Shown here piece by piece: positions 2,887 through 20,207 of a DNA stretch of 20,381 bases (positions within the stretch are counted from its first letter, which is position 1; each line of letters starts with the position of its first letter). Position numbers and translations under genes: made by a program. Location of the stretch: the IMG/VR virus record IMGVR_UViG_3300037070_001813, positions 1 through 20,381 of that record; one strand, given 5' to 3'. Source of the stretch: a virus. The notes under the pieces are model-generated. The model ran no database searches. It saw nothing but the letters and a program-made list of their open reading frames with translations, and was not told the origin of the DNA.

Positions 2887-3582
2887 ATGACCGAGATCCT
2901 GCACCGCTCGTTCGAGGTGACTGCGGTCGAGGTCGAGGGCCGCACCGTAGATGTCCGTGTCGTCCCGTTCGGTGAGGTCGCAAGGGTCGCTGACCCACCC
3001 GACTTCGAGCCGTACGAAGAGGAGTTCGTGCCCGGCTGCTTCGACCACCAGTTGAGCGCCGCGAACCGCGTGCACGCGAACTACGAGCACGGCAAGGGCA
3101 TCTCGGACGTGGTCGGGCACGGCGTCTCGCTCAGGCAGGAGTCGGACGGGTATCACCTGACGTCGACGATCCACCGCACCAACAACGGCGACACGGCGCT
3201 CGAGCTGATCAACGCCGGCGCGCTCCCCGGCGTCTCCGTCGAGTTTCACCCGGTCAGGAACGTGAAGGCGGGGAACGTGCTGCAGCGTGTGCGCGCGAAC
3301 CTGCGTGGGTTCGCGTTCTGCCGCCAGGGCGCATTCGCCGGGGCGCAGGTGCTGGCTGTCCGTTCGGAGGACGAGGAGCCCACACAGACTTTGGACGCCG
3401 CGCTGATGCCGGTGGACATCGACCCGGAGCGCGTCGAGCGGTTGCGCGCCCAGGGGATCGTTCTGCCTGACCGCTACACGAAGGCGCACCCCGCCGAGGA
3501 CACCCCCGACACGTCGGGCACCTCCGATGACGACGGCACCCGCCAGACCGCCACGACCACTTCATCGGAGGGAACGGAATGA
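2887..3582 (+). CDS. HK97-family prohead protease (capsid maturation protease)
   Basis: This is a serine protease that cleaves scaffold segments of the capsid protein during prohead maturation. The 231 residues contain the U35/S78-like core: an N-terminal strand region (FEVTAVEVEGRTVDVRVVPF), the catalytic His in ANYEHGKG (His68), and the catalytic Ser in LPGVSVEFHP (Ser117). The strand RANLRGFAFCRQGAFAGAQV follows at about 137-154. Residues after about 160 are acidic and Thr/Asp-rich, probably a flexible tail removed or used in assembly. A GGAGGT ribosome site precedes the ATG. The last codon overlaps the capsid gene start (ATGA), so protease and capsid production are probably coupled. Family assignment is by motif and position. 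Confidence 0.93.
   Translation: MTEILHRSFEVTAVEVEGRTVDVRVVPFGEVARVADPPDFEPYEEEFVPGCFDHQLSAANRVHANYEHGKGISDVVGHGVSLRQESDGYHLTSTIHRTNNGDTALELINAGALPGVSVEFHPVRNVKAGNVLQRVRANLRGFAFCRQGAFAGAQVLAVRSEDEEPTQTLDAALMPVDIDPERVERLRAQGIVLPDRYTKAHPAEDTPDTSGTSDDDGTRQTATTTSSEGTE
3567..3573 (+). promoter_or_regulatory. Ribosome binding site of the major capsid gene
   Basis: GGAGGGA ends five bases before the ATG at 3579. The strength suits a highly expressed capsid gene. Confidence 0.75.
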
Positions 3583-4826
3583 ACGAATCACAGGCCGAGC
3601 GCACCCTGCAGCTTCGGGTCGACGCTCGCGAGCAGACGCACGGCAAGCAGGAGGAGCTGCTGCGCTCGCTCGGCACCGACACGCCGAGCCCGGAGCAGAA
3701 CGAGATGCTCGCCAAGTACCGCGGCGACCTCGCGTACTTCGACAAGGAGATCAACGACTGGTCGGAGCAGGTCGACGCCGACCGGCTCGCACGCGAGAAG
3801 TCCGACGAGATCCGTCGCCGCTCGAACGCCTTCCACGGCAAGGGCGACTTCGGCGAGGACGGCGAGCCGATCTACCGGACGCTCGGACAGGTCGCGATCG
3901 ACCAGCTCCTCACCAGCCAGAACCGGCACGCCCGCGCGCACGTCGGCACCCAGGGCGTCGCACCGGAGGACATCCAGCGGGCAGCCGAGCGTCTTTCCGC
4001 GCTCGAGCGGACACCGGCCACGACGCTTTCCTCGGACATCGCCGGGCTGACGCCGCCGCAGCACATCGCGGAGATCTTCCAGATCATCAACGACGACCGG
4101 CCGCTCGTCGAAGCCGCCGGCGTGAAGCGGAACTTGACGAACCTCGTCTACACGTACCCGCAGGTCGACGCATCGCCGGTCGTCGCCGCACAGGGGACGC
4201 AGAAGACCGAGGCAGGCAACACCGGCATGGACGTCTCGATGGTCACGAAGACCGCGACCACCTACCTCGGTGGCGGCAACCTGTCGTGGCAGGCAATCGA
4301 GTTCTCCGACCCGTCGGCGTACGACCTGTGGTTCCGGCTGATCGCCGCCGACTACGCGCTGAAGACGGAGACGGACGCCGCAACGGTCGTGTCCGCGTCG
4401 GCGTACCTCAACAACATCGCCAGCACGATCGCGACGTCCGCGACGTTCGCGCAGCACATGACCGCGGTCGGTGCCGGATACGCCGAGGTGTGGGCCAACT
4501 CCGGTCGCACCGCGAACGCGGTCATCATGGCCCCCGACCGGTTCGGGTACTTCCTCGGGCTGACGTCGGACGCGTTCACGCAGTTCATCAACGTGAACCA
4601 GGCCGGGATCGGGCCGCTGCGGGTCATCGTGTCCCGCGGACTGAACGCCGGCGAGATCATCGTCGGTGACATGAACGGGCTGCTCGTCGCGGAGAACGCC
4701 GGCGCACCCGTCCGGATGTTCGTGTCGGAGCCCGCAATCGCTGGTGTCGAGGTCGGCCTCGTCGGTGCCTTCGACGCCGCTGTTGTCGACGACGGCGCGT
4801 TCGCGCTGATCTCGACCGCCAGCTAG
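3579..4826 (+). CDS. Major capsid protein, HK97 fold with N-terminal scaffold (delta) domain
   Basis: This 415-residue protein forms the icosahedral shell. Residues 1 to about 85 are highly charged and helical (for example KYRGDLAYFDKEINDW at 46-61), as expected of the delta/scaffold domain that the upstream protease removes. After a linker, the shell domain runs from roughly 146 to the end: LTPPQHIAEIFQIINDDRPL (157-176) is the usual entry to the HK97 fold. A Gly/Asn-rich extended stretch with GTQKTEAGNTG fits the E-loop. Later segments LSWQAIEFSDPSAYDLWF, RTANAVIMAPDRFGYF and GLLVAENAGAPVRMFV fit the P- and A-domains. The start is fixed by the ATGA overlap and a strong ribosome site. A hairpin follows the stop. 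No cross-linking Lys/Asn pair can be assigned from sequence alone. Confidence 0.95.
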   Translation: MNESQAERTLQLRVDAREQTHGKQEELLRSLGTDTPSPEQNEMLAKYRGDLAYFDKEINDWSEQVDADRLAREKSDEIRRRSNAFHGKGDFGEDGEPIYRTLGQVAIDQLLTSQNRHARAHVGTQGVAPEDIQRAAERLSALERTPATTLSSDIAGLTPPQHIAEIFQIINDDRPLVEAAGVKRNLTNLVYTYPQVDASPVVAAQGTQKTEAGNTGMDVSMVTKTATTYLGGGNLSWQAIEFSDPSAYDLWFRLIAADYALKTETDAATVVSASAYLNNIASTIATSATFAQHMTAVGAGYAEVWANSGRTANAVIMAPDRFGYFLGLTSDAFTQFINVNQAGIGPLRVIVSRGLNAGEIIVGDMNGLLVAENAGAPVRMFVSEPAIAGVEVGLVGAFDAAVVDDGAFALISTAS

Positions 4827-4909: not shown

Positions 4910-5338
4910 ATGGCGACCTACAACAAGTTCCAGAACTTCGTGGAAGACCTCGGGCTGGGCGTCCACAACCTGAACACCGGAACGCTCAACGTGTACCTGT
5001 CGAACGCCGCCCCGTCAGCTTCGGGTGACGCGGTGAAGGCGGACATGGCCGAGATCACGAACCAGAACGGCTACACAGCACCGATTGACACGCAGAACAC
5101 GTTTGCGGAGACGGGCGGCACCGCCACGTTGACTGGCACGAAGTGTGTGGTGACGGCGTCAGGGACGGTCGGGCCTTTCCAGTACGTGGTGCTGTACAAC
5201 GACACGCCGACGTCGCCGGCTGACCCGCTGATCGCGTGGTGGGATTACGGCTCGGCGCTGACGTTGGCGAACGGCGAGACGTTCTCGGTGAAGTTCAACA
5301 ACAGCGACACGACCGGGACGATCCTCACGATCGCGTGA
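4910..5338 (+). CDS. Conserved small virion protein, possibly capsid decoration protein
   Basis: The product has 142 residues, begins MATYNKFQNFVEDLGLGVHN and is rich in Thr, Asn and Gly with alternating hydrophobic residues, suggesting an all-beta fold. The body includes LNVYLSNAAP, VKADMAEITNQNGYT and PFQYVVLYNDTPTSPADPLI, then WWDYGSALTLANGETFSV near the end. I recognise this as a family common in tailed phages, usually encoded near the capsid or tail genes and often left as hypothetical. Placement directly after the major capsid gene, with its own ribosome site, favours a head decoration or other abundant structural role, but this is inference. No signal peptide or membrane segment is seen. 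Its stop overlaps the next gene start (GTGA). Confidence 0.72.
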   Translation: MATYNKFQNFVEDLGLGVHNLNTGTLNVYLSNAAPSASGDAVKADMAEITNQNGYTAPIDTQNTFAETGGTATLTGTKCVVTASGTVGPFQYVVLYNDTPTSPADPLIAWWDYGSALTLANGETFSVKFNNSDTTGTILTIA

Positions 5339-5484
5339 AGGACTGTTGCAAAGACCCGGCGAACCGCACCGAGGCCGAGCAGTTGCCGAACGGGGCGACC
5401 TTGCAGAAGTGCACGGTGTGCGGCTGCCGTCATTTCGAGCTGGCCGTCGACCCGGTGCAGGTTGGTGTGAAACTCGATGGCTGA
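5335..5484 (+). CDS. Small zinc-ribbon-like protein (49 residues)
   Basis: The GTG at 5335 overlaps the stop of the upstream gene (GTGA), and the frame ends at 5484, eight bases inside the next gene. The product begins MKDCCKDPANRTEAEQL and contains KCTVCGCRHFEL. It therefore has a Cys pair at residues 4-5, then a CxxC plus CRH cluster at about 28-34, a likely metal-binding knuckle. I recall very similar tiny CCKDPAN...KCxVCxxRH proteins in the structural regions of other actinobacterial phages. The function is unknown; binding of zinc and of a partner virion protein is inference. The frame is open further upstream to 5236, but that part overlaps the decoration-like gene and has no family resemblance. 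Confidence 0.72.
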   Translation: MKDCCKDPANRTEAEQLPNGATLQKCTVCGCRHFELAVDPVQVGVKLDG

Positions 5485-6751
5485 GGTCATCTTCACGGCG
5501 GAGGAGATCGCCGCGTTCCCGCAGGGCCCGCCCGGCCCGCCCGGTGGCGGTGGCGGATACCTCCCCGGCCAGCTCGTCCGGTTCGTCGACCCGCGAAACG
5601 GACTTGACGCGAACCCCGGCACCGAACCAGGACTCGCGAAGAAGACGATTCAGTCCGCGTACAGCGACGTCCGCACGTTCGCGGAGGCGACAGGCTCGAG
5701 CGAGGGCGGCCGACTCGGTGTCGGCACGATCCAACTGCTGCCCGGCGACCACGACGTCGGCGCGGGACTGTCGGTCGCATGGAACCGGCCGGCGTGCTTC
5801 CAGGGCACACGCTCGGGGCCGCGTGATCACGCGCCGCAGAACACCGCCTCGCGGGTCGTCTCGTCCGGCAACCCGACCGAGCTTGTCCGGGTTCAGGGGC
5901 AGGGCGTCGAGGAGATCACCCGCGGCATGTCGTTCGAGGACATCGCGTTCCGCATGAACCACACGGTCAACACGAAGCTCGAGCGGGTCATCTACGCGAA
6001 GCGGGTCGGGTACCTGACGGTGGAACGCTGCTCGTTCACGAACCACGACCTGAACACGAACCAGCCGGTCGTGGCGATCCACCACGACGACTCGAACGAC
6101 CCGAGCGGCGAGGGCGGCTGGGCGCGGATCCGCAACAACAGCGTCTCGCGGATGGCCCTGTACCGCGCGACCGGCGGGAACTTCAACCGCGGCCGGATCA
6201 GCGACAACGTCGTGTTCTACGGCGGCACCCTGCCGATGATCCAGTTGGCCGGGAACACGAACGGGCTCGTCTGTGACGGCAACAACCTCGAGGGCACCGC
6301 GACGGCCGTGGAGATCGGCCCGACCGGCGTGTTCACACAGATGACGTTCCTCGGCAACTCCGGGGAGGATCCGTCTACGGGGACGCCGCCGAACCCGTTC
6401 TACAAGTTCACGGGGTCGACGTCACAGTCGATCATCATCGGCGGCACCTGCTCGAGCGGCAGCTCCACAGGGTTCGGTGTCTGGGTGAACTTCGGCCCGA
6501 CCGCCTACCGGAACCTGGTGGTCGGCGTGTTCGACACGACCGACGTGTCCAGGTCGCACAAGCGTCGGGTGGTCGAGACGACCCATGCGGACAAGAACAC
6601 GCTGATCCCGATGAACGTCACGATCCCCACCTACACGACGGCGCATGTGACCGACCGCGCGTTCGACGCTGCGACGGTCACCCTCCAGGAGCTCGCGAAC
6701 GTGGTCGGCACTCTCGTTGCCGATCTGCGCGGTCGGGGCTGGGTGAAGTAG
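5477..6751 (+). CDS. Right-handed beta-helix, tailspike-like structural protein
   Basis: The product has 424 residues. After a short N-terminal stretch comes a tiny collagen-like run, GPPGPPGG (17-24), and a glycine linker. The segment FVDPRNGLDANPGTEPG (36-52) is the typical entry of pectate-lyase-like beta-helix proteins (a VDPxNGxDxNxG pattern), leading into KKTIQSAYSDV. The middle has many short Asn/Gly-capped strands (GYLTVERCSFTNHDLN, GRISDNVVFYGG, GLVCDGNNLEGTATAVEIG), as in stacked helix rungs. The C-terminal FDAATVTLQELANVVGTLVA, from about residue 395, looks like an amphipathic trimerisation helix. Such proteins are usually trimeric receptor-binding spikes or fibres and may bind or cleave polysaccharide. 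No catalytic residues can be named. The location between capsid and connector genes is unusual for a spike. Confidence 0.75.
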   Translation: MAEVIFTAEEIAAFPQGPPGPPGGGGGYLPGQLVRFVDPRNGLDANPGTEPGLAKKTIQSAYSDVRTFAEATGSSEGGRLGVGTIQLLPGDHDVGAGLSVAWNRPACFQGTRSGPRDHAPQNTASRVVSSGNPTELVRVQGQGVEEITRGMSFEDIAFRMNHTVNTKLERVIYAKRVGYLTVERCSFTNHDLNTNQPVVAIHHDDSNDPSGEGGWARIRNNSVSRMALYRATGGNFNRGRISDNVVFYGGTLPMIQLAGNTNGLVCDGNNLEGTATAVEIGPTGVFTQMTFLGNSGEDPSTGTPPNPFYKFTGSTSQSIIIGGTCSSGSSTGFGVWVNFGPTAYRNLVVGVFDTTDVSRSHKRRVVETTHADKNTLIPMNVTIPTYTTAHVTDRAFDAATVTLQELANVVGTLVADLRGRGWVK

Positions 6752-7294
6752 ATGGCCGACTTCCCGGCCACCTCGCCGGCGATCCAGCCGCAGATGACGA
6801 GCAGCAGCCTGGCGCTCTACATCGAACTGTTCTCTAACAACCCGAACCTGACGACGTTCGAGACGGCGTCGGGTGCGTGGCCGACCGCGAACCTTGCGAT
6901 CCTGGTTCCGTGCCCGATCGCGTCGCCGTTCCTCGTCACCCAGATCTACGTGTTCAACGGGACAGCCGTGTCCGGCAACATCGACGTCGGCATCTACACC
7001 GCTGAGGGCGCGCTGGTCGTGGCCGCGGGGTCGACGGCGCAGACGGGCACGTCGTCGATCCAGGCGTTCAACGTGACGGACACGCTGCTCGCACCCGGCC
7101 TGTACTACCTGGCATGCGCGCTCGACAACAACACCGGGATCGTCAGCCACAACGTGCCGCCCGCGACGCAGTGTCGGATGATGGGGGTCAGGCAGGCGAC
7201 GAGCGCGTTCGCGTTGCCGTCCACCGTGACGTTCGCCGCGGCAGCGAACGCGTACGTGCCGTGCATTTACCTCACAGCAGCGGGGGTTATCTGA
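6752..7294 (+). CDS. Beta-rich structural protein, paralogue A of a tandem pair
   Basis: This 180-residue protein starts MADFPATSPAIQPQ at an ATG directly abutting the previous stop. It is rich in Ala, Thr and Val with alternating strands, including IASPFLVTQIYVFNGTAVSG, NIDVGIYTAEGALVVAAGS, LLAPGLYYLACALDNNTG and CRMMGVRQATSAFALPS. The pattern GNIDVGIY..G.LV...G.TAQ.GTS recurs in the next gene, so the two are paralogues. The sequence resembles jelly-roll or carbohydrate-binding-like modules encoded among phage structural genes; a virion surface role, perhaps adhesion, is inferred. There is no signal peptide. The stop overlaps the start of the paralogue (TGATG). A precise function is not assigned. 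Confidence 0.72.
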   Translation: MADFPATSPAIQPQMTSSSLALYIELFSNNPNLTTFETASGAWPTANLAILVPCPIASPFLVTQIYVFNGTAVSGNIDVGIYTAEGALVVAAGSTAQTGTSSIQAFNVTDTLLAPGLYYLACALDNNTGIVSHNVPPATQCRMMGVRQATSAFALPSTVTFAAAANAYVPCIYLTAAGVI

Positions 7295-7833
7295 TGGCCG
7301 ACTTCCCGTCTCCCGGCGTCTGCCTTCCGGTGTACTCGGTGTTCTCGTCGGTCGCGTCGGGTGGCGCACTCAACTTACTTGCGAACTCGGCAGGCAACGG
7401 CGCCTCGACCGCGTGGCCGTCAGCGAACCGTGCCATCTACGTGCCGTTCTACCTGCCCGCTTCGTTCACTCTCGCGTCGATGTTCTCGTACAACGGCGCG
7501 ACGGCAACCGGCAACATCGACCTGGGTGTGTACGGCGTCGACGGGACGCTGATCGCGTCGAAGGGCGCGACCGCCCAGTCGGGCACCAGCACGTTGCAGA
7601 TCCTGACGATGGCGTCTCTGATCCTGCTGCCGCCCGGCCGTTACTACATGGCGATGTCGGCTTCGTCGACCTCGTCGACCGTGTTCGCGCGAACCCCGAA
7701 CGTCGCCACACAGCAGCGGATGGGGATCCTGCAGGCCGCGTCCCAGAATCCGCTCGCGACCGGGCCGACGCTCGCGACCGTCGCCAGCTCGTTCCTCCCG
7801 TTCTTCGGCATCGCCCAGATCACCACCTATTAG
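7294..7833 (+). CDS. Beta-rich structural protein, paralogue B of a tandem pair
   Basis: The ATG at 7294 overlaps the stop of paralogue A and gives MADFPSPGVCLPVYSVFSSV; the frame is open upstream to 7114, but that would overlap the neighbour deeply. The 179-residue product follows the same plan as paralogue A: a W-P-S/T-A-N segment (AWPSANRAIYVPFYLP), the core GNIDLGVYGVDGTLIASKGA then TAQSGTSTLQ, LLPPGRYYMAMSAS, and a C-terminal QQRMGILQAAS followed by SSFLPFFGI. The N-terminal third differs more from its partner than the core does. It was most likely produced by gene duplication followed by divergence. A structural or adhesion role is inferred from context only. Confidence 0.72.
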   Translation: MADFPSPGVCLPVYSVFSSVASGGALNLLANSAGNGASTAWPSANRAIYVPFYLPASFTLASMFSYNGATATGNIDLGVYGVDGTLIASKGATAQSGTSTLQILTMASLILLPPGRYYMAMSASSTSSTVFARTPNVATQQRMGILQAASQNPLATGPTLATVASSFLPFFGIAQITTY

Positions 7834-7836
7834 GAG
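7832..7836 (+). promoter_or_regulatory. Ribosome binding site for the gene at 7842
   Basis: AGGAG overlaps the TAG stop of paralogue B and lies five bases before the ATG at 7842. It decides the start within a longer open frame that reaches back to 7413. Confidence 0.7.
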
Positions 7837-7841
7837 AACCG

Positions 7842-8189
7842 ATGGCTGTCACCGCACAAGGACAGAACACCCAGTCGGCAACGGTGACGACCGAACACAC
7901 CCTGCTCGACGTCGCTGTCGCCGGCACGTTCACGCTGCATGTCGACACCGTCAACATGGTGGCCGGGGACGGGCTCGAGCTGCGCATCTACCAGATCGTG
8001 CTGACGGGCGGAACACGCCGGGTCGCGTATCTCGGTGCGTGGCAGGGGGCGCAACCGGTCGACGACCTGATCAAGATCAGCGTCCCGATCTCGAACGAAC
8101 TGACCGACTCGGGGTCGCTGCGTTTCACGTTGAAGCAGACGACCGGCACCAGCCGGAACTTCCCCTGGAAAGTCCTGAAGTACGCGTAG
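7842..8189 (+). CDS. Conserved small phage virion-region protein
   Basis: This 115-residue protein begins MAVTAQGQNTQSATVTTEHT after a clear ribosome site. It is all-beta in character: LLDVAVAGTFTLHVDTVNMV, GDGLELRIYQIVLTGGTRRV, then DLIKISVPISNELTDSGSLR and FTLKQTTGTSRNFPWKVLKY. I recognise a short family encoded beside structural genes in diverse tailed phages, without known biochemical function. The size and strand pattern would fit a compact beta-sandwich decorating the head or forming part of an appendage. The next gene starts two bases after its stop. The coding call is firm and the role is open. Confidence 0.7.
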   Translation: MAVTAQGQNTQSATVTTEHTLLDVAVAGTFTLHVDTVNMVAGDGLELRIYQIVLTGGTRRVAYLGAWQGAQPVDDLIKISVPISNELTDSGSLRFTLKQTTGTSRNFPWKVLKYA

Positions 8190-8192
8190 CGT

Positions 8193-8957
8193 GTGGCTGC
8201 TCCTTCGACACGAAACATTGTTCCGCTTCTCCCGACGGGGGCAGCGCCCAACGACTACACCCTCGACTGTCAGCCAGGCACCTATGCGGTCACTGGCGCG
8301 TCGGCAACTCTCGCCCGAGGACTGTTCGTCAATGCCGAGCCAGGCGTCTACACGGTCACTGGTTCCAATGCGACCCTCGCACGGGGATTGTTCCTCGAAT
8401 CGTCCCCTGGCAGCTATGCGGTCACAGGTACAGCGGCCACCGTTCTCTATGGGAAGTTCCTCAGTGCCGACGCCGGTTCATACGCGGTCACCGGGACAGC
8501 GGCGACCACCGCTGCGGGACGGGTCTTCAACGCCGAGGTCGGTTCGTACACCGTCACCGGTCTGGCTGCCACCTTTGCGCTTGCACGCAACCTCTCCGCT
8601 GACCCCGGCGTCTATGTCATCAACGGTGTTGACGCTTCCATCGCGCTCGCCGGCGTGTTCGCTCTCCAGGCCGACCCCGGCGCATACACGGTCAGCGGTG
8701 CGAACGCCACACTTGCTCGCGGACTGTTCCTGCAGGTCGACCCTGGAACGTATGCGGTCACCGGGTTCGCCGCGACGTTCCTGCGCGCCCTGGTTGCGTC
8801 CGCCGACCCTGGCGCCTACGTCGTCACGGGTGTCGCGGCCAGCCTTGTCAAGGTCGGGATCGTGCATCTCGAGCTGGTCGGCTACCCGCCGATCCTCGTC
8901 AGCCACAACGGCGGCGGCTACATCCAGGCGATCGACCGAGTAGAGGTGGAGGTCTGA
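8193..8957 (+). CDS. Repeat protein made of nine 22-residue PGxYxVTGxxAT units
   Basis: The GTG at 8193 gives MAAPSTRNIVPLLPTG, and the 254-residue product is mostly a tandem repeat. The conserved Tyr falls at 31, 53, 75, 97, 119, 141, 165, 187 and 209, a period of 22 residues with one 24-residue step. The consensus is [D/E]-P-G-x-Y-x-V-T-G-x-x-A-T-L-x-R-G-L-F-x-x-x. A non-repeat cap, GYPPILVSHNGGGYIQAIDR, closes the protein near 230-249. Such regularly spaced Gly/Tyr/Val units suggest a beta-solenoid or a fibrous stack. Similar AGSYxITGxxAT repeats occur in phage tail or minor structural proteins. Its stop overlaps the connector ATG (TGATG). The role is inferred: an extended virion fibre, spacer or adhesin. 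Copy-number variation among relatives is likely. Confidence 0.78.
   Translation: MAAPSTRNIVPLLPTGAAPNDYTLDCQPGTYAVTGASATLARGLFVNAEPGVYTVTGSNATLARGLFLESSPGSYAVTGTAATVLYGKFLSADAGSYAVTGTAATTAAGRVFNAEVGSYTVTGLAATFALARNLSADPGVYVINGVDASIALAGVFALQADPGAYTVSGANATLARGLFLQVDPGTYAVTGFAATFLRALVASADPGAYVVTGVAASLVKVGIVHLELVGYPPILVSHNGGGYIQAIDRVEVEV
8272..8860 (+). repeat. Tandem 66-bp coding repeats (nine degenerate copies)
   Basis: Each 22-residue repeat of the surrounding gene corresponds to about 66 bases; one unit has 72. Fragments such as TATGCGGTCAC (near 8283 and 8412) recur at the expected phase, and TATGCGGTCACCGGG recurs near 8751. Variants of CTCGCNCGNGGACTGTTC recur after three of the units. 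The copies have diverged at the DNA level, so they are old duplications under protein-level selection rather than a fresh expansion. Confidence 0.7.
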
Positions 8958-9586: not shown

Positions 9587-10033
9587 GTGCCGACCACGAC
9601 GCAGAACGCCGACCTGTTGGACGCGATGGCAGACCAGATCCGCACGGCGCTCGCCTCGGTGACCGACGTCGAGGTTCAGGTCGAGCCGCGGATGGTGTCG
9701 GCCCCGTCGCCGCCGACGATCGACATGTACCCCGGCGACGTCTCGCGCGGAACCGACGCCGCAGCGTTCGGGCTCGAGGGCGAGTTCCTGTTCACGGTCA
9801 GGGCGAGGGTGAACGAGAACGACGCCGACGCGAACCAGGATCTGCTGCTCAACTTCATGGACGACGTCAACGCTCTTTCGGTCGCGGCGGCGCTGTATGA
9901 AGACCCCACATTGGGGGGGCTGGCGTCCGACATGGATTGCATCAACCCGACCGGCTACGTCCTGTACCCGTACGGGTCGGAGACGCTGCTGGGGTTCCAG
10001 TTCACGGCACGGGTGATCAGGTCGGACTCGTGA
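9587..10033 (+). CDS. Tail terminator-like / neck protein
   Basis: The GTG at 9587 directly follows the connector stop; the product has 148 residues. The layout is that of tail-terminator or minor neck proteins: an N-terminal helix (LLDAMADQIRTALASV, 10-25), strands containing PPTIDMYPGD and the segment EFLFTVRARVNENDADANQD, a long helix (LLLNFMDDVNALSVAAALYE), and C-terminal strands GYVLYPYGSETLLGFQFTAR. In siphoviruses this protein caps the tail tube and joins it to the connector. Its position right after the connector supports this. Sequence identity within the family is low, so a head-completion protein is an alternative. Its TGA overlaps the GTG of the first gene of the accessory cassette (GTGA). 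Confidence 0.72.
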   Translation: MPTTTQNADLLDAMADQIRTALASVTDVEVQVEPRMVSAPSPPTIDMYPGDVSRGTDAAAFGLEGEFLFTVRARVNENDADANQDLLLNFMDDVNALSVAAALYEDPTLGGLASDMDCINPTGYVLYPYGSETLLGFQFTARVIRSDS

Positions 10034-10674
10034 CGACGTTCGCGACAGACGTGCGGCTCGGGATCGAGCTCGGGATCGGCTGCTCCCCGGAGTGCAACCA
10101 CTTCGCGGGCCCGCTCCTGTCGCAGCTCGACTCGGGCAAGTACGACGTGTGCGCCACGATGCCGCTGCCGTTGTCACGCGAGGCATGGCAGGACGAGCAC
10201 CGCACCTCCCGTAAGCGCGCCTGGAAGGCCGAGCACCACGGGTACTTCGCAGCCAGGGTCAACCGCGACGAGTTCGAGGACGACGTCTGGGCCGTCAACC
10301 TGTCGCGCCCCGTAAGACAGGGCCGACCGATGACGGACTCGTACAAGGACAGACCCATGTATGCGCGGGAGAACGCTTCCTGTGCCCTCCACGGGGTACA
10401 TGCGTACGGTGTGCTCGACGGCCACGGCACGCTGGTCGCGTATCTGTGGATGTACCGCGCCGGCGACCTGGCGCTGGTGTCGCAGGTTCTCGGTCATGCG
10501 GCGCACGAGGACTTCGGGATCATGCACCTGCTGTTCCGTGAGGCGCTGACCGCCGAGGGACAGATCGCGCCGGGCGTCGCTTGTTACAACCGTTGGGACT
10601 CAGGGAAGCCGGGCCTCCGTCAGTTGAAGGCGTGGGTCGGGTTCGAGGAGACGAGGGTGGAATGGCTCCCGTAG
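10030..10674 (+). CDS. Putative acyltransferase-like protein (GNAT/FemAB-like)
   Basis: The GTG at 10030 overlaps the previous stop, and the product has 214 residues; the frame is open back to 9937 but that part shows no resemblance. Features: Cys-rich N-terminus (GCSPECNHF, 17-25), a basic helix HRTSRKRAWKAEHHGY (57-72), and the segment VNLSRPVRQGRPMTDSYKDR (89-108). A GNAT-like half follows: GVLDGHGTLVAYLWMYRAGD, LALVSQVLGHAAHEDFGIMH, then GLRQLKAWVGFEETRVEWLP. The end resembles the GNAT 'xxxYxxxGF' tail. I recall this RQGRPM-type protein in phage glycosylation-like cassettes. Acyl transfer to a sugar or protein is inferred, not shown. It opens a five-gene cassette and its end overlaps the next gene by 13 bases. 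Confidence 0.62.
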   Translation: MTTFATDVRLGIELGIGCSPECNHFAGPLLSQLDSGKYDVCATMPLPLSREAWQDEHRTSRKRAWKAEHHGYFAARVNRDEFEDDVWAVNLSRPVRQGRPMTDSYKDRPMYARENASCALHGVHAYGVLDGHGTLVAYLWMYRAGDLALVSQVLGHAAHEDFGIMHLLFREALTAEGQIAPGVACYNRWDSGKPGLRQLKAWVGFEETRVEWLP

Positions 10675-11159
10675 TTTTGGACGGCAGGCTCGGTGAGATC
10701 AGCGCGGAGGCGCGCGTCTACCCGGCGCACCTGTTGCGCGAGGGTGGCACCGGGCTGTGTCTGTTCGCGGCTCGTTTCTGGGGTGTGAACGACGCGATCC
10801 ACATGGCGCGTCAGATTATGGCCGTCGACCTCGTCGATACCAGCCCGCGCGTAATGGAGATGAGCAGGATGTATCGCGGTGGCGGTATGGAGGCCCGCGG
10901 ATTCTGTCACGACGCCTGGGCGTTCGCGGAACGATCGCAAGGAACCGACCGCCAGTGGGACGCGGTGAGCGCGGACACCTTCACCGGCGACCCCATGACC
11001 CGCAGCCTCGCATCGCTCGAGTTGTGGTGCTCCCTCGCCCGCGACGTCGTCACCGTCACCCACGTCCCCGGCGCACCCTACGACGTGCCGGACGGCTGGG
11101 AAGGCGCGCTGTTCCCCCGCAACGACCGTGTCAACTGGCTGGTGCTCACGCCATGCTGA
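10662..11159 (+). CDS. SAM-dependent methyltransferase-like protein
   Basis: The ATG at 10662, inside the end of the upstream gene, gives 165 residues; the frame is open back to 10581. The protein looks like a small class I methyltransferase: a modified nucleotide-loop region GGTGLCLFAARFWGVNDAIH (28-47), an acidic strand end AVDLVDTSP (54-62), an acid in FCHDAWAFAE (81-90), strand WDAVSADTF (99-107), and a later strand VVTVTHV. The classic GxGxG motif is absent, replaced by a GGTGL-type loop, so SAM binding is likely but not certain. It may methylate a sugar, a virion protein or another cassette product. It overlaps the following glycosyltransferase gene by seven bases. The coding call is firm and the activity inferred. 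Confidence 0.65.
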   Translation: MAPVVLDGRLGEISAEARVYPAHLLREGGTGLCLFAARFWGVNDAIHMARQIMAVDLVDTSPRVMEMSRMYRGGGMEARGFCHDAWAFAERSQGTDRQWDAVSADTFTGDPMTRSLASLELWCSLARDVVTVTHVPGAPYDVPDGWEGALFPRNDRVNWLVLTPC

Positions 11160-11743
11160 CCCCCGACAAGGTGACCGCGTGTCTCGTTACCCGCGGCGAC
11201 CAGCCCGAACAGCTCGAGCGGATCATCGCGACGCTGCCCTATGACGAGATCATCGTCTGGGACAACTCGCACGCGCGCGACCTGAAGACCGCCGGCCGCT
11301 ACCAGGCGATGCTCGCTGCGAAACACGACGTCGTCTACTTCCAGGACGACGACACCCTCTTTCGGATGCACGCGGAACTGGTGCTCGAGTACGAGCCCGG
11401 AACGATCACGGCGGTGTATGGGCATGGGGAGAACGACGGCGGCTACGGCGACCTGCCGCTGGTCTGCGGTGGAGCATTGGCAGACCGGGGCGCGGTGCTC
11501 GAGGGGATGAGACGCTACCGCGACGAGCCGCTGTCGGACTGGCCCGACGAGGATCTTTACTACGCCGACTTCGCGATCGGCGTGCTGACACCGCACAAGC
11601 ACGTGCGGTTGCCGTTCGAGATCAACATGGAGATCGCACAGCACCCGTCCCGCCTGTGCAACCAGCCGTGGGCGGCGGACGCGAAACGACGGGTGACGGA
11701 ACGAGCACGGGCGATCAGGGACGGTGCGCTATCCGTCGCGTAG
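11153..11743 (+). CDS. GT-A type glycosyltransferase-like protein
   Basis: The ATG at 11153 gives 196 residues (the frame is open back to 10757). The N-terminus VTACLVTRGDQPEQLERIIA (7-26) is the start of a GT-A nucleotide-sugar fold, followed by DEIIVWDNSHARDL (31-44). The metal-binding DxD-type motif is VVYFQDDDTLF (60-70, acids 65-67). Later parts fit an acceptor-side region: VCGGALADRGAVLEGM and DWPDEDLYYADFAIGV, the latter with an acidic cluster that could hold a catalytic base. It is shorter than many GT2 enzymes. It probably transfers a sugar from an NDP-sugar to a virion or cell-wall acceptor, with donor and acceptor unknown. The C-terminal about 30 residues overlap the open frame of the next gene. 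Confidence 0.75.
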   Translation: MLTPDKVTACLVTRGDQPEQLERIIATLPYDEIIVWDNSHARDLKTAGRYQAMLAAKHDVVYFQDDDTLFRMHAELVLEYEPGTITAVYGHGENDGGYGDLPLVCGGALADRGAVLEGMRRYRDEPLSDWPDEDLYYADFAIGVLTPHKHVRLPFEINMEIAQHPSRLCNQPWAADAKRRVTERARAIRDGALSVA

Positions 11744-12486
11744 GCCCATTCGGCCACGACGACCTCCTCGACCTCGACTCGCTGTACGCACGCGCCGACC
11801 GTGTGATCCCGATGCGCGACGTCTGGAAGGGAGACACCAACCCGCGCGCCATCGCTGTCCGGCACGACGTGGACGACAACGCTGGAGCCTTCGACACCGC
11901 GCTCCGCATGGCCGAATGGGAGTTCGAGCGCGGCTACAGCTCCACCTACTACCTGCTGCACTCGGCGGGCTACTGGAACGCCGACAACCTCGTCCGCGCG
12001 CTCACCTTCCAGGAACTCGGACACGAGGTCGGGGTGCATGTGAACGCAATCGCGGAATCGCTCAGACGCCGCAGGGCACCCGACTGGATCCTCCTAGAGG
12101 CACTGTCGGATCTGCGCTCGGTGGGCCTGAGAATCGACGGTATGGCCGCGCACGGGGATCCCCTCTGTCGTGACCGGGAGGGCCGGGTCAGGTTCGTCAA
12201 CGATGAGATGTTCCTCGAGTCACGCCGCCCGTCGATGGGCTCCGCGACCCGCACCGTCACCCACAAGAAGACGACGGTGATGCTGGAGCCGCAGCCGCGC
12301 GCGAACTACCACCTTTCGTACGACGCGTCATGGCTGTCTCGGGGCGACTACCTGTCGGACTCGGGGCATGTGTGGTCGCAGGAGTTCGACCATGTGTGCC
12401 GTCACTGGCCGAAGCACGGGCAGCTGCACATGCTGGTTCACCCGGACTGGTGGGTCGGCGCGTTCCCGATGGCGGTCGCCGCATGA
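11656..12486 (+). CDS. Polysaccharide deacetylase-superfamily (NodB-like) protein
   Basis: The product has up to 276 residues from GTG 11656; the true start is uncertain (GTG 11668 also possible), and either start overlaps the upstream gene by more than 70 bases. Motifs of the deacetylase fold are clear: AVRHDVDD (67-74), the RHDVD form of motif 1; STYYLLHSAGYW (96-107); LGHEVGVHVNA (121-131), the His motif; MAAHGDP (163-169); and LHMLVHPDWW (257-266), the C-terminal His. These would place a metal and an acid/base His, so a hydrolase acting on N-acetylated sugar is plausible. The substrate is unknown. It lies between two glycosyltransferases, which suits removal of an acetyl group from a transferred sugar. 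Its stop overlaps the next ATG (ATGA). Confidence 0.72.
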   Translation: MQPAVGGGRETTGDGTSTGDQGRCAIRRVGPFGHDDLLDLDSLYARADRVIPMRDVWKGDTNPRAIAVRHDVDDNAGAFDTALRMAEWEFERGYSSTYYLLHSAGYWNADNLVRALTFQELGHEVGVHVNAIAESLRRRRAPDWILLEALSDLRSVGLRIDGMAAHGDPLCRDREGRVRFVNDEMFLESRRPSMGSATRTVTHKKTTVMLEPQPRANYHLSYDASWLSRGDYLSDSGHVWSQEFDHVCRHWPKHGQLHMLVHPDWWVGAFPMAVAA

Positions 12487-13226
12487 GCCTCTGGTTCATC
12501 GTGCCGGCGCACGGCCGGGTCGAGCTCGCACGCATCTGCCTCACCCAGCTACGCCGAACCTGTGACGCGCTCGAGGACGAAGGCATCCGTGCGTCCGCCG
12601 TAGTGGTCGCAGACGACGAGAACCTGGACACCGCCCGCGACCTCGGGTTTGCGTGGGTGCGCCGTGACAACCGGTTCGTGTCGCGCAAGTTCAACGACGG
12701 GATCCAGTTGGCGTGCGACCCGCAGTTCAACCCTCACCCGGTCGAGTTCGTCGTGCCCTGCGGCTCCGACGACTTCGTCGACTGGCGACTGTTCCACAAC
12801 CTGCCGTCGCAGAACACCGTCGTCGGGTTCCAGCGGATGTCGTTCGTCCGCGAGGACGGCGCCGAACTGACGGTCAGGAAGATCAACACGGAGGGCGGCT
12901 GCGGGATCCGCATCTGGCCCCGTCACCTGATGGCCGCAACCGGCTACAGGCCCGCCGATGAGGACAGACCCCGCGGCTGCGACACCTCGATCCTCGTGAA
13001 CACCCGGCGCGCGTTCCCCGACATGCGGGTGGAGCACCGCGACCTGGATCCGCTGCAGATCGTGGACTGGAAGTCGACCGGCGCGAACCTGAACCCGTAC
13101 GACGCGCTTCGCCGCCACAAGTCCGAGCTTCAGCGTGACCCGTTCCAGGTGCTCGACGGCCGCTACCCGCGGGAGGCGTTGCGGGAGATGCAGGATCACT
13201 ACTGCCGGACACTGGTGCCCGCGTGA
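12483..13226 (+). CDS. Family 2-like glycosyltransferase
   Basis: The ATG at 12483 overlaps the deacetylase-like stop; 247 residues. It begins with a typical GT-A strand-loop, MSLWFIVPAHGRVELARICL, then VVVADDENLDTARDLGFAWV (41-59 region), the phrase RRDNRFVSRKFNDGIQLA (60-77), and the metal-site strand VEFVVPCGSDDFVDW (87-101) with SDD acting as DxD. Downstream GGCGIRIWPRHLMAATGYRP resembles the acceptor loop of GT2 enzymes. The C-terminal part (PLQIVDWKSTGANLNPYDAL and after) is basic and may be a helical extension. It is the second transferase of the cassette; a second sugar or chain extension is inferred. The stop overlaps the next gene (GTGA), tying the cassette to the tail operon. Confidence 0.8.
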   Translation: MSLWFIVPAHGRVELARICLTQLRRTCDALEDEGIRASAVVVADDENLDTARDLGFAWVRRDNRFVSRKFNDGIQLACDPQFNPHPVEFVVPCGSDDFVDWRLFHNLPSQNTVVGFQRMSFVREDGAELTVRKINTEGGCGIRIWPRHLMAATGYRPADEDRPRGCDTSILVNTRRAFPDMRVEHRDLDPLQIVDWKSTGANLNPYDALRRHKSELQRDPFQVLDGRYPREALREMQDHYCRTLVPA

Positions 13227-13429
13227 ACATGGGTGTCTACGAGGTGACGGGCAAGCGGGAGTATCGCGGCCACGCGCCCGGCACCGAGTTCGAGGCGAAC
13301 CTTCAGCCCGGTGCCGAGCGTCGCGCTGTCGACCGTGGCGACATCGTCCTATTGCGGCGCGTCACGCCGACGCTGCCTGCCGAGTTCTGTTTACCCGACG
13401 GCTGGATCGCCAGCCACAGAGAGGAGTAA
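13223..13429 (+). CDS. Small conserved beta protein upstream of the major tail gene
   Basis: GTG 13223 overlaps the previous stop (68 residues); ATG 13229, two codons later, is an alternative start. The sequence MNMGVYEVTGKREYRGHAPG, FEANLQPGAERRAVDRGDI and PTLPAEFCLPDGWIASHREE suggests a short SH3-like barrel. I recall similar MGVYxVTGxxxYRGHxPGxxFEA proteins beside major tail or neck genes in actinobacterial phages, without a known function. Its stop TAA lies inside the ribosome-site region of the major tail gene. A neck or tail assembly role is only inferred from location. Confidence 0.68.
   Translation: MNMGVYEVTGKREYRGHAPGTEFEANLQPGAERRAVDRGDIVLLRRVTPTLPAEFCLPDGWIASHREE
13421..13426 (+). 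promoter_or_regulatory. Ribosome binding site of the major tail gene
   Basis: GAGGAG, straddling the end of the small upstream gene, ends six bases before the GTG at 13433. It allows strong initiation for an abundant protein. Confidence 0.7.
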
Positions 13430-13432
13430 GAG

Positions 13433-13852
13433 GTGGCGTACACCAAGAAGATCAGCCGTCACGACAAGATCACCATTGACGGCACCGACGTCTCGAACAG
13501 CTTCCGCACGTTCGGGATGTCGAGCGAGCATTCGCAGGAGGACGTGTCCGGGTTCAGCGCGACCGGCTATGACGAGTTCCTGCCGGGCTCGACGACGCAG
13601 CGGTTCACGGGGGAGGCGTTCTACACGGAGGAGTTGGGCGCGATCGTGCAGCCGCTCCACGCGAACCGGACGTCCTGCACGATCACCTGGCAGCCCGACG
13701 GGCTCGTCGATGCGACTCGTGAGATCTACACGGGCACCGGTTGCATCATCTTCACGTTCGGGCCGGAGAACACCCGCGGCTCCGTTGCCGTGATGCCGTT
13801 CGAGGCGATCCCGACGACGTCGGCTGGGATCAGCGTCGGCAACTGGACATAG
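13433..13852 (+). CDS. Major tail protein (tail tube)
   Basis: The GTG at 13433 gives 139 residues, matching the expected size for a small tube protein. Features: KITIDGTDVSNSFRTFGMSS (an early strand pair), EDVSGFSATGYDEFLPGS (the SGFSATG segment is typical of tail tube proteins), QRFTGEAFYTEELGAIVQPL, SCTITWQPDG, and the Gly-rich strand TGTGCIIFTFGPENTRGSVA. The all-beta pattern with a long loop fits the tube fold shared by siphovirus and other contractile-like systems. It sits between the neck/cassette and the assembly chaperones, as expected. The strong ribosome site is consistent with high expression. I have no evidence for an Ig-like add-on domain. Confidence 0.88.
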   Translation: MAYTKKISRHDKITIDGTDVSNSFRTFGMSSEHSQEDVSGFSATGYDEFLPGSTTQRFTGEAFYTEELGAIVQPLHANRTSCTITWQPDGLVDATREIYTGTGCIIFTFGPENTRGSVAVMPFEAIPTTSAGISVGNWT

Positions 13853-19080: not shown

Positions 19081-19599
19081 ATGGCTGACACCAAGATCAG
19101 CGACCTTGCAGCGGTAACCGATGTGCTCGGAACCGATGAGTATGTTCTGGCGCGGTCTGGTGACACCAACAAGATCACCGCCGCAGACCTGGGCGCGGGG
19201 CTCGTCGCAGGCGCCCTGGAACTAGATTATGTAGAGCGCACGTCAGACCTGACCGTTTCCGCAACGACCGTCGCCGGGGCAAACACCCTCATCACAGGCA
19301 ACAGCGTCTTGTACGACGGCTCAACGAGGATCTGTGTCGAGGTTTATATCGCCGGGTCGGCAGCATCACAGTTCATGGACTTGACGATCTGGGACGGGGC
19401 AACCGACCTGGGCGCTATCGGTGACACGTCCAGCGCCGGCAGCACCATCCTGGGGCGTCGCTTCCTGACTCCCTCCGCTGGGTCGCACACGTTCACGGTA
19501 AAGGCGTATCGAGGTACTGGAAGCGCAACCGTTTTCGCTGGCTCCGGTGGAACGTCGGGCCAATACCTGCCTGCCTATCTGAGGATCACGAGAGCCTGA
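19081..19599 (+). CDS. Tail fibre-like protein with ADTKISDL N-terminus
   Basis: The ATG at 19081 follows a GAGAGAGGTGA stretch and yields 172 residues. MADTKISDLAAVTDVLGTDE resembles the head segment that many phage tail fibres use to attach (xxTKISxLxxx followed by a DExxxxRxGxxxxIT region; here EYVLARSGDTNKITAADL). The remainder is beta-rich: LELDYVERTSDLTVSATTVA, VEVYIAGSAASQFMDLTIWD, FLTPSAGSHTFTVKAYRGTG and GQYLPAYLRITRA, consistent with a globular knob. It is therefore a probable short fibre or knob protein. The receptor is unknown. The next gene overlaps its stop by one base (TGATG). Confidence 0.75.
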   Translation: MADTKISDLAAVTDVLGTDEYVLARSGDTNKITAADLGAGLVAGALELDYVERTSDLTVSATTVAGANTLITGNSVLYDGSTRICVEVYIAGSAASQFMDLTIWDGATDLGAIGDTSSAGSTILGRRFLTPSAGSHTFTVKAYRGTGSATVFAGSGGTSGQYLPAYLRITRA

Positions 19600-20207
19600 T
19601 GACCGACAAACAGATCGCCGCGCTCCTCAAGTCCTGCCGCGCCGACCTTCGCAAGACCCGCGAGGGCTACGTCAGCCATCCGGACGGCCCGCATTGGCGC
19701 GTCGCGATGCCGAAGCTCGCGCAGGCAATCAAGGAACTGGAACGCCCCGCGGTGCCCGCGCTCGGCCCGGTTCTCGAGGACGGATTGGACATGCTGCTGA
19801 TGGCGCCAACCCACAACACCGACGGGGTGCCGCACTATCCGGCGTTCGACACCGGGTTCGGGCAGGCAGGCCGGTGGGTGCTCGCCCCGGAGGCTCTGAC
19901 GGTCACCCGGCAGTCTGGCGCGGTCGGCGGCGATGCCGTCTACGCGACCGGGGCGTCGAGGATCGACTACTGGATCGGACATATCGCTCCGGCCCCAGCG
20001 ACGGGCAGGACGTTCCGGAAGGGCGAACGGATCAGCCGCATCGCTGACCAGTCCGGCACCGACCACGTGCATTGGGGACTCGACGCGCGTGCGCTGATCG
20101 GGAAGGACCTCCTTTACGGGCGTAACGGGGACGGGCCGGACTACACCTGGGGCGCACCGACGATCGGGGCGCAACTCGCGACAGGGATCGCAAGGGGGAG
20201 CGTCTGA
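19599..20207 (+). CDS. M23/LytM-like peptidase-fold protein (candidate tail or lysis hydrolase)
   Basis: The 202-residue product has an N-terminal helical part (MTDKQIAALLKSCRADLRKT; LAQAIKELERPAV) and a C-terminal M23-like domain, about 66-165: MAPTHNTDGVPHYPAFDTGF, RWVLAPEALTVTRQ, DYWIGHIAPAPATGRTFRKG, then ERISRIADQSGTDHVHWGLD. The layout matches LytM-type Zn endopeptidases: a first metal motif, a Y-x-x-GH-like strand, and HVH (156-158) as the final HxH. The first motif is HYPAFD (His79-x4-Asp84), one residue longer than the usual HxxxD. It may be a peptidoglycan hydrolase for entry or lysis, or a degenerate member. The C-terminus is Gly-rich. It sits after the fibre genes, where lysis genes often begin. 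Confidence 0.68.
   Translation: MTDKQIAALLKSCRADLRKTREGYVSHPDGPHWRVAMPKLAQAIKELERPAVPALGPVLEDGLDMLLMAPTHNTDGVPHYPAFDTGFGQAGRWVLAPEALTVTRQSGAVGGDAVYATGASRIDYWIGHIAPAPATGRTFRKGERISRIADQSGTDHVHWGLDARALIGKDLLYGRNGDGPDYTWGAPTIGAQLATGIARGSV

Follow-up and report, generated by a model that had tools for sequence, protein, structure and literature searches.

Why would a phage carry five genes for what look like glycan-modifying enzymes among the genes for its own particle? The locus that raises this question occupies positions 10030–13226 of the viral record IMGVR_UViG_3300037070_001813, which we analysed over its whole 20,381 nucleotides (hereafter the window; the IMG/VR record is complete at 20,381 bases and is classed as linear, a class that often denotes a fragment). 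A preliminary description had taken these genes for a glycan-modification cassette inserted between neck and tail tube genes. We consider it reasonably probable that they form a modular, horizontally mobile virion-glycan cassette in the late structural module of a siphophage. The five genes, g1 to g5, and their immediate flanks are as follows:

9587..10033, plus strand: tail terminator, flanking the cassette on the left (phrog_17840, expectation value (E) 7e-7; gene order at empty sites)
10030..10674, plus strand: g1, GNAT-like (Acetyltransf_6/FemAB-related) acyltransferase, weakly assigned (weak PF13480 family matches, invariant residues)
10662..11159, plus strand: g2, putative class-I (RsmD-like) methyltransferase (weak PDB profile matches; fusions)
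11153..11743, plus strand: g3, small GT-A-like (GT2-like) glycosyltransferase (PF00535 matches among members; QDDD)
11668..12486 (start uncertain), plus strand: g4, CE4/NodB-fold deacetylase, as predicted (AlphaFold, Foldseek, invariant residues)
12483..13226, plus strand: g5, GT-A type glycosyltransferase-like protein, the most widely shared member (PF00535, PDB 3bcv; 61 loci)
13223..13429, plus strand: small conserved structural gene, right flank (kept with and without the cassette)

All five genes are co-directional and overlap head-to-tail, and they overlap both flanking genes as well, by 4 base pairs (bp) for terminator/g1, 13 bp for g1/g2, 7 bp for g2/g3, 4 bp for g4/g5 and 4 bp for g5/small gene. 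g3 and g4 also overlap, to an extent that depends on the uncertain g4 start. No promoter-like or terminator-like site was found between g1–g5 and their flanks. The gene boundaries and the operon linkage given in the preliminary description thus hold. At the g3/g4 junction (region 11728–11745), the conserved part of g4 begins near 11740; the orthologue in contig L002 starts with ATG where the window has ATC (11731), and the nearest in-frame start upstream is a GTG at 11668, within g3.

We used g1, g2, g3, g4, g5 and the putative tail tube as queries to scan 2.9 million viral contigs and then mapped gene order. Genes of the relatives were called by a simple codon-model script, with some start sites and short genes approximate; loci were gathered via cassette genes or the tube, and the counts given here are not a random phage sample. 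In about 45 contigs from uncultured soil phages, the orthologous set comes immediately behind the tail terminator, most commonly in the order g1 g2 g3 g4 g5 or g2 g1 c20 g3 g4 g5, where c20 is an additional glycosyltransferase-like gene. A survey of this kind had been suggested beforehand, and it reveals that the set is not unique to the window phage. g4 is near g1 in 48 of the 49 contigs that have g1 and at least 3.5 kilobases (kb) beyond it, and g5 occurs at 61 loci. Between the window and its nearest relative, L002, the cassette proteins share 82–88% amino-acid identity, and the ratios of non-synonymous to synonymous substitution rates (0.25, 0.29, 0.18, 0.17 and 0.18 for g1 to g5) indicate that all five are under purifying selection and are not chance open reading frames. 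A conserved, syntenic set under such selection lies far beyond chance. Searching 50,697 named phages by tblastn gave no match for g1–g5 of the window; divergent versions of the genes gave one, in an unannotated faecal record.

The cassette can be called inserted, as had been claimed, because related phages have an empty site. In 25 related contigs, found by the tube search and thus independently of the cassette, the small gene comes next after the terminator, and the two overlap by 4 bp in 20 of these contigs; the window retains an overlap of 4 bp at each outer junction of the cassette. A tree of major head proteins has a branch with support 99/99 that separates the 45 rows with the cassette from the 15 rows with the empty site.

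The set also occupies other positions. In L110, a member of the cassette clade, g1–g4 lie between terminase and portal and g5 lies beside the small gene. In phages whose head protein is of another type (phrog_267; L112, L122 and others), the set comes after the major head gene; it stands just before or near the terminase in L140, L142, L143 and L261, and follows the tube in L105. Every phage context that we looked at closely places it in or beside the structural/packaging module.

Homologues in bacteria connect the genes to each other and to polysaccharides. In the Chloroflexota chromosomes L028 and L030, g1 and g4 homologues are adjacent and stand beside genes that look like those for Wzm/Wzt-type exporters and GT4 enzymes, neighbours that were recognised by eye from their sequences. 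In Accumulibacter (L042), a single 832-residue protein has the architecture g4-g1-g2, a neighbouring protein carries g1-g2 behind another domain, and the locus includes a polysaccharide-export-like protein. g4 is fused to a TPR-methyltransferase in Sterolibacterium, and g2 is fused to g5 in phage L140. These fusions and adjacencies link g1, g2, g4 and g5 in a single pathway, and connect it with surface glycans; the proposal of glycan modification as the role of the cassette is supported by this sequence context. In a tree of g4, the phage proteins fall into one clade, to which Chloroflexota come closest among bacteria; a few divergent viral rows (L141, L142, L144) stand apart.

Taken singly, none of the five window proteins exceeds a curated Pfam cut-off, and NCBIfam and PHROGs gave nothing usable for g1–g5. 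Weak Pfam matches to Mesothelin, GSG-1, PdxJ and WS_DGAT_cat were rejected as chance. The family matches described here come from alignments of 12–19 orthologues. For g1, three of 14 members match the GNAT family Acetyltransf_6 (PF13480, best E 1.4e-4), the window protein scoring 14.1 bits against a cut-off of 22. Residues S92, R96, M101, Y105, C118, H121, Y138, H156 and K200 are invariant across 67 phage and bacterial rows. The earlier acyltransferase assignment is thereby upheld weakly, as a GNAT-like enzyme. g2 finds the PDB profiles 2ift, 3c0k and 7xif at marginal E values of 0.2–0.9 (0.2 for the best methylase-type match), and its invariant D105 region aligns with the DPPF motif of HI0767, itself a marginal profile match. 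It may be class-I methyltransferase-like, and the methyltransferase guess stays weak.

Both GT-A assignments hold through matches of family members. Six of 12 g3 members match PF00535 (Glycos_transf_2, best E 3e-5) and the QDDD motif is invariant in 44 rows; one g5 member matches PF00535 at 3e-4, PDB entry 3bcv is matched at E 0.007, and the GSDD motif is conserved. The window proteins themselves fall below the cut-off in both families, and we therefore call g3 and g5 GT-A-like (GT2-like) glycosyltransferases.

The AlphaFold model of g4 has a predicted local distance difference test score of 95.1, and its top Foldseek matches in the PDB are CE4 deacetylases acting on peptidoglycan, chitin and xylan (probability 1.0, template modelling score 0.35–0.48). 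The model thus assigns to g4, with high confidence, a CE4/NodB deacetylase fold, in agreement with the NodB-like enzyme named earlier. In Pfam, the window protein does not match PF01522, and one member only reaches Polysacc_deac_1, at E 0.06. D42, D44, H99, H137 and H233 are invariant and H94 is 99% conserved over 81–89 phage and bacterial rows. The invariance of RHDxD, H99, H137 and H233 suggests an active metal enzyme, though the spacing differs from that of the canonical TFDD/HxxxH. By hydropathy, all of g1–g5 are soluble and have no transmembrane or signal-like stretch.

What would such enzymes do together? These soluble enzymes would act in the host cytoplasm during virion assembly. g5, the shared core GT-A enzyme, together with g3 and in some relatives a further glycosyltransferase, would transfer one or two sugars from host nucleotide sugars onto a protein of the particle, for example the tail tube or the capsid protein. 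g4 would strip the N-acetyl group from an amino sugar, leaving a free amine for g1 to modify with a different acyl group or an aminoacyl group; methylation would fall to g2. Such a pathway would carry over to a virus particle the chemistry by which NodC, NodB, NodA and NodS make Nod factors. Deacetylation followed by N-acylation is our tentative choice for the signature of the cassette. Virion glycosylation has, to our knowledge, been demonstrated for just a few actinobacteriophages, in which it protects the particles from antibodies; here the benefit would most likely be particle shielding or altered adsorption. We place the target in the virion because the proteins are soluble, their genes are coupled to tail genes and the set is found at structural/packaging locations. 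A capsid or tail protein as acceptor is suggested by gene position and by analogy with Corndogvirus. The two candidates are:

3579..4826, plus strand: major head protein, possible acceptor (phrog_2263, E 5e-32; basis of the lineage tree)
13433..13852, plus strand: putative tail tube, possible acceptor (between terminator and tape measure in gene order; 24% serine plus threonine)

Several points weigh against this virion-glycan assignment. Glycosylation of the virion is deduced here from genes, and the identity of g2 as a methyltransferase is not secure. No nucleotide-sugar synthesis genes lie near the cassette, so host precursors must be assumed. The tube is named from gene order and conservation, PHROGs, the PDB and the named phages having given no match; of the flanks given in the preliminary description, the left one matches a tail-terminator family, and the right one is a putative tail tube on that basis. 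Cassette phages have more serine plus threonine in the putative tube (fraction 0.210 versus 0.175) and also in the head protein, but this contrast is a hint only, since it compares two lineages and is confounded by descent. Finally, bacterial homologues in cell-surface loci would also fit modification of the host surface.

Among the alternatives, the one that survives best keeps the particle as target and places the modified sugar on head or tail fibres or decoration proteins rather than on tube or capsid. In L002, L003, L014, L104 and L105, variable fibre-like genes are found within the cassette or next to it, and candidate acceptors would be the variable window genes at 4910–8957 or the 400–517-residue genes of relatives between g4 and g5. 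Such a gene is missing from the cassette in many contigs, however, and we regard this acceptor as rather unlikely.

Phage gtr clusters modify host surface polysaccharide, and the cassette might do the same late in infection or in lysogeny, changing a receptor or excluding superinfection. The location of bacterial g1, g2 and g4 homologues in polysaccharide-export loci speaks for this. The set lacks, however, a membrane protein, flippase, undecaprenyl enzyme or transmembrane segment; it is translationally coupled within a late structural operon without a promoter-like site of its own, and the closely studied phage contexts are all structural or packaging ones, which is not where typical lysogenic-conversion genes are placed. 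Host-surface modification is therefore distinctly unlikely.

Still less probable is a role for g4, perhaps together with other cassette proteins, as a structural component of the virion that deacetylates host glycans when the phage adsorbs. g4 has weak fold similarity to minor tail proteins of Arthrobacter phages, and deacetylase domains are known in virions, as is reported for the HFTV1 turret in a paper that also cites Acinetobacter phage Aristophanes as a case (PMC12494034). Yet g4 is a lone 247-residue enzyme with no structural domain, its closest relatives adjoin or are fused to g1 and g2, which need intracellular cofactors, and it travels with the set to non-tail positions. DNA hypermodification is highly improbable: glycosyltransferase, GNAT and methyltransferase enzymes do serve phage base modification, but no base-synthesis or hydroxylating enzyme was recognised in the 20.4-kb record (part of a genome), the genes lie in the tail module and their bacterial homologues in polysaccharide loci.

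The virion-glycan cassette may belong to a larger family. In 12 contigs, a g5-type enzyme is accompanied by an alternative set, the methyltransferase c28 and the WbqC family protein c29 (PF08889, E 1e-20), often with c36 or c26 (e.g., L016, L017, L305, L309, L312, L317 and L318). This set is absent from all 77 contigs that have g1 or g4, and the two sets never occur together. Profile alignment with hhalign was not significant for g3 against g5, c20 or c36, nor for g2 against c26 or c28, and we found no relevant literature on WbqC or a NodA/NodB pair in phages. It is possible, and we put it forward with reserve, that soil phages share a mobile, so far undescribed virion-glycan operon family in which the core g5 is joined by one of two mutually exclusive sets: deacetylase, N-acyltransferase and methyltransferase-like protein, or methyltransferase and WbqC. 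If so, each phage would have a chemically distinct, exchangeable sugar coat, made by Nod-factor-like chemistry from bacterial surface-polysaccharide loci. Such a widespread, syntenic and swappable set would show that soil phages commonly coat their particles with sugars, and in chemically diverse ways; phages with empty sites or the alternative set are ready natural controls.

The remainder of the window encodes terminase, portal, protease, major head protein, several fibre-like genes and a connector before the terminator, and tape measure and baseplate genes after the putative tube; names without a PHROG match follow gene order. The host is probably an actinobacterium, a guess based on a guanine plus cytosine content of 66%, nearest head proteins from mycobacteriophages and one contig of the same type in an Actinomycetota metagenome-assembled genome. 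In L003 (4748) and L014 (4412), the putative tube gene directly follows the major head gene and not the cassette, an instance of order shuffling. The fibre-like inserts between g4 and g5 (L002 6157–7362, L003 8704–9978, L014 8439–9992, L104 8681–9928) may be glycan acceptors or mark a hotspot for decoration genes. Two tandem paralogous window genes (6752–7833; 180 and 179 residues), which have a relative immediately upstream of g5 in L006, adjoin a fibre-like gene (5477–6751) with a GPPGPPGG stretch. The protein encoded at 8193–8957 consists of repeats of about 19 residues (type DPGxYxVTGxxATLARGLFL), whereas the DNA shows no visible repeat. A cysteine-rich 49-residue reading frame with a CxxC motif (KCTVCGCRHF) at 5335–5484 overlaps the next gene, and 19599–20207 encodes a C-terminal M23-like HWGLDAR motif, possibly of a tail-associated or lytic peptidase.

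How, then, does the cassette compare with known systems? The bacterial surface-polysaccharide loci (L028/L030, L042) hold true sequence homologues of g1, g2 and g4, adjacent or fused, but they are chromosomal, lie beside export genes and include proteins with a fused SGNH-like, TPR or additional methyltransferase domain. The CE4/NodB-like deacetylases PdaC, chitin deacetylase and PgdA share their fold with g4 at about 12% identity; g4 has RHDxD and HExGxH where CE4 enzymes have TFDD and HxxxH, and it has no signal peptide. With NodC, NodB, NodA and NodS, the cassette would share the classes GT-A transferase, CE4 deacetylase, N-acyltransferase and methyltransferase. Since g1 gives no match to the Pfam model of NodA, nor g2 to that of NodS, the likeness is one of working alike and not of membership, and Nod-factor enzymes act on chitin oligomers, whereas the acceptor here is presumably a protein.

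The nearest parallel in phages is Corndogvirus (mycobacteriophage cluster O), which also has glycosyltransferase and methyltransferase genes within its structural module, the methyltransferase being weak in our case. In the Corndogvirus Firecracker, gp33–gp36 (a methyltransferase and three glycosyltransferases) lie between portal and protease, a site at which the related phage MooMoo has no such cassette; MooMoo and Corndogvirus have the named head proteins closest to that of the window (26–27% identity). For cluster O, PMC11600133 and PMC12363180 report glycosylation of capsid and tail tube by such genes, each with reference to Freeman et al. 2023. The Corndogvirus cassette has no deacetylase or acyltransferase and is sited between portal and protease instead of between terminator and small gene, and hmmsearch and hhalign of our cassette profiles against gp33–36 gave no similarity. 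The cassette would thus be analogous to that of Corndogvirus, with an enzyme set unrelated to it by profile.

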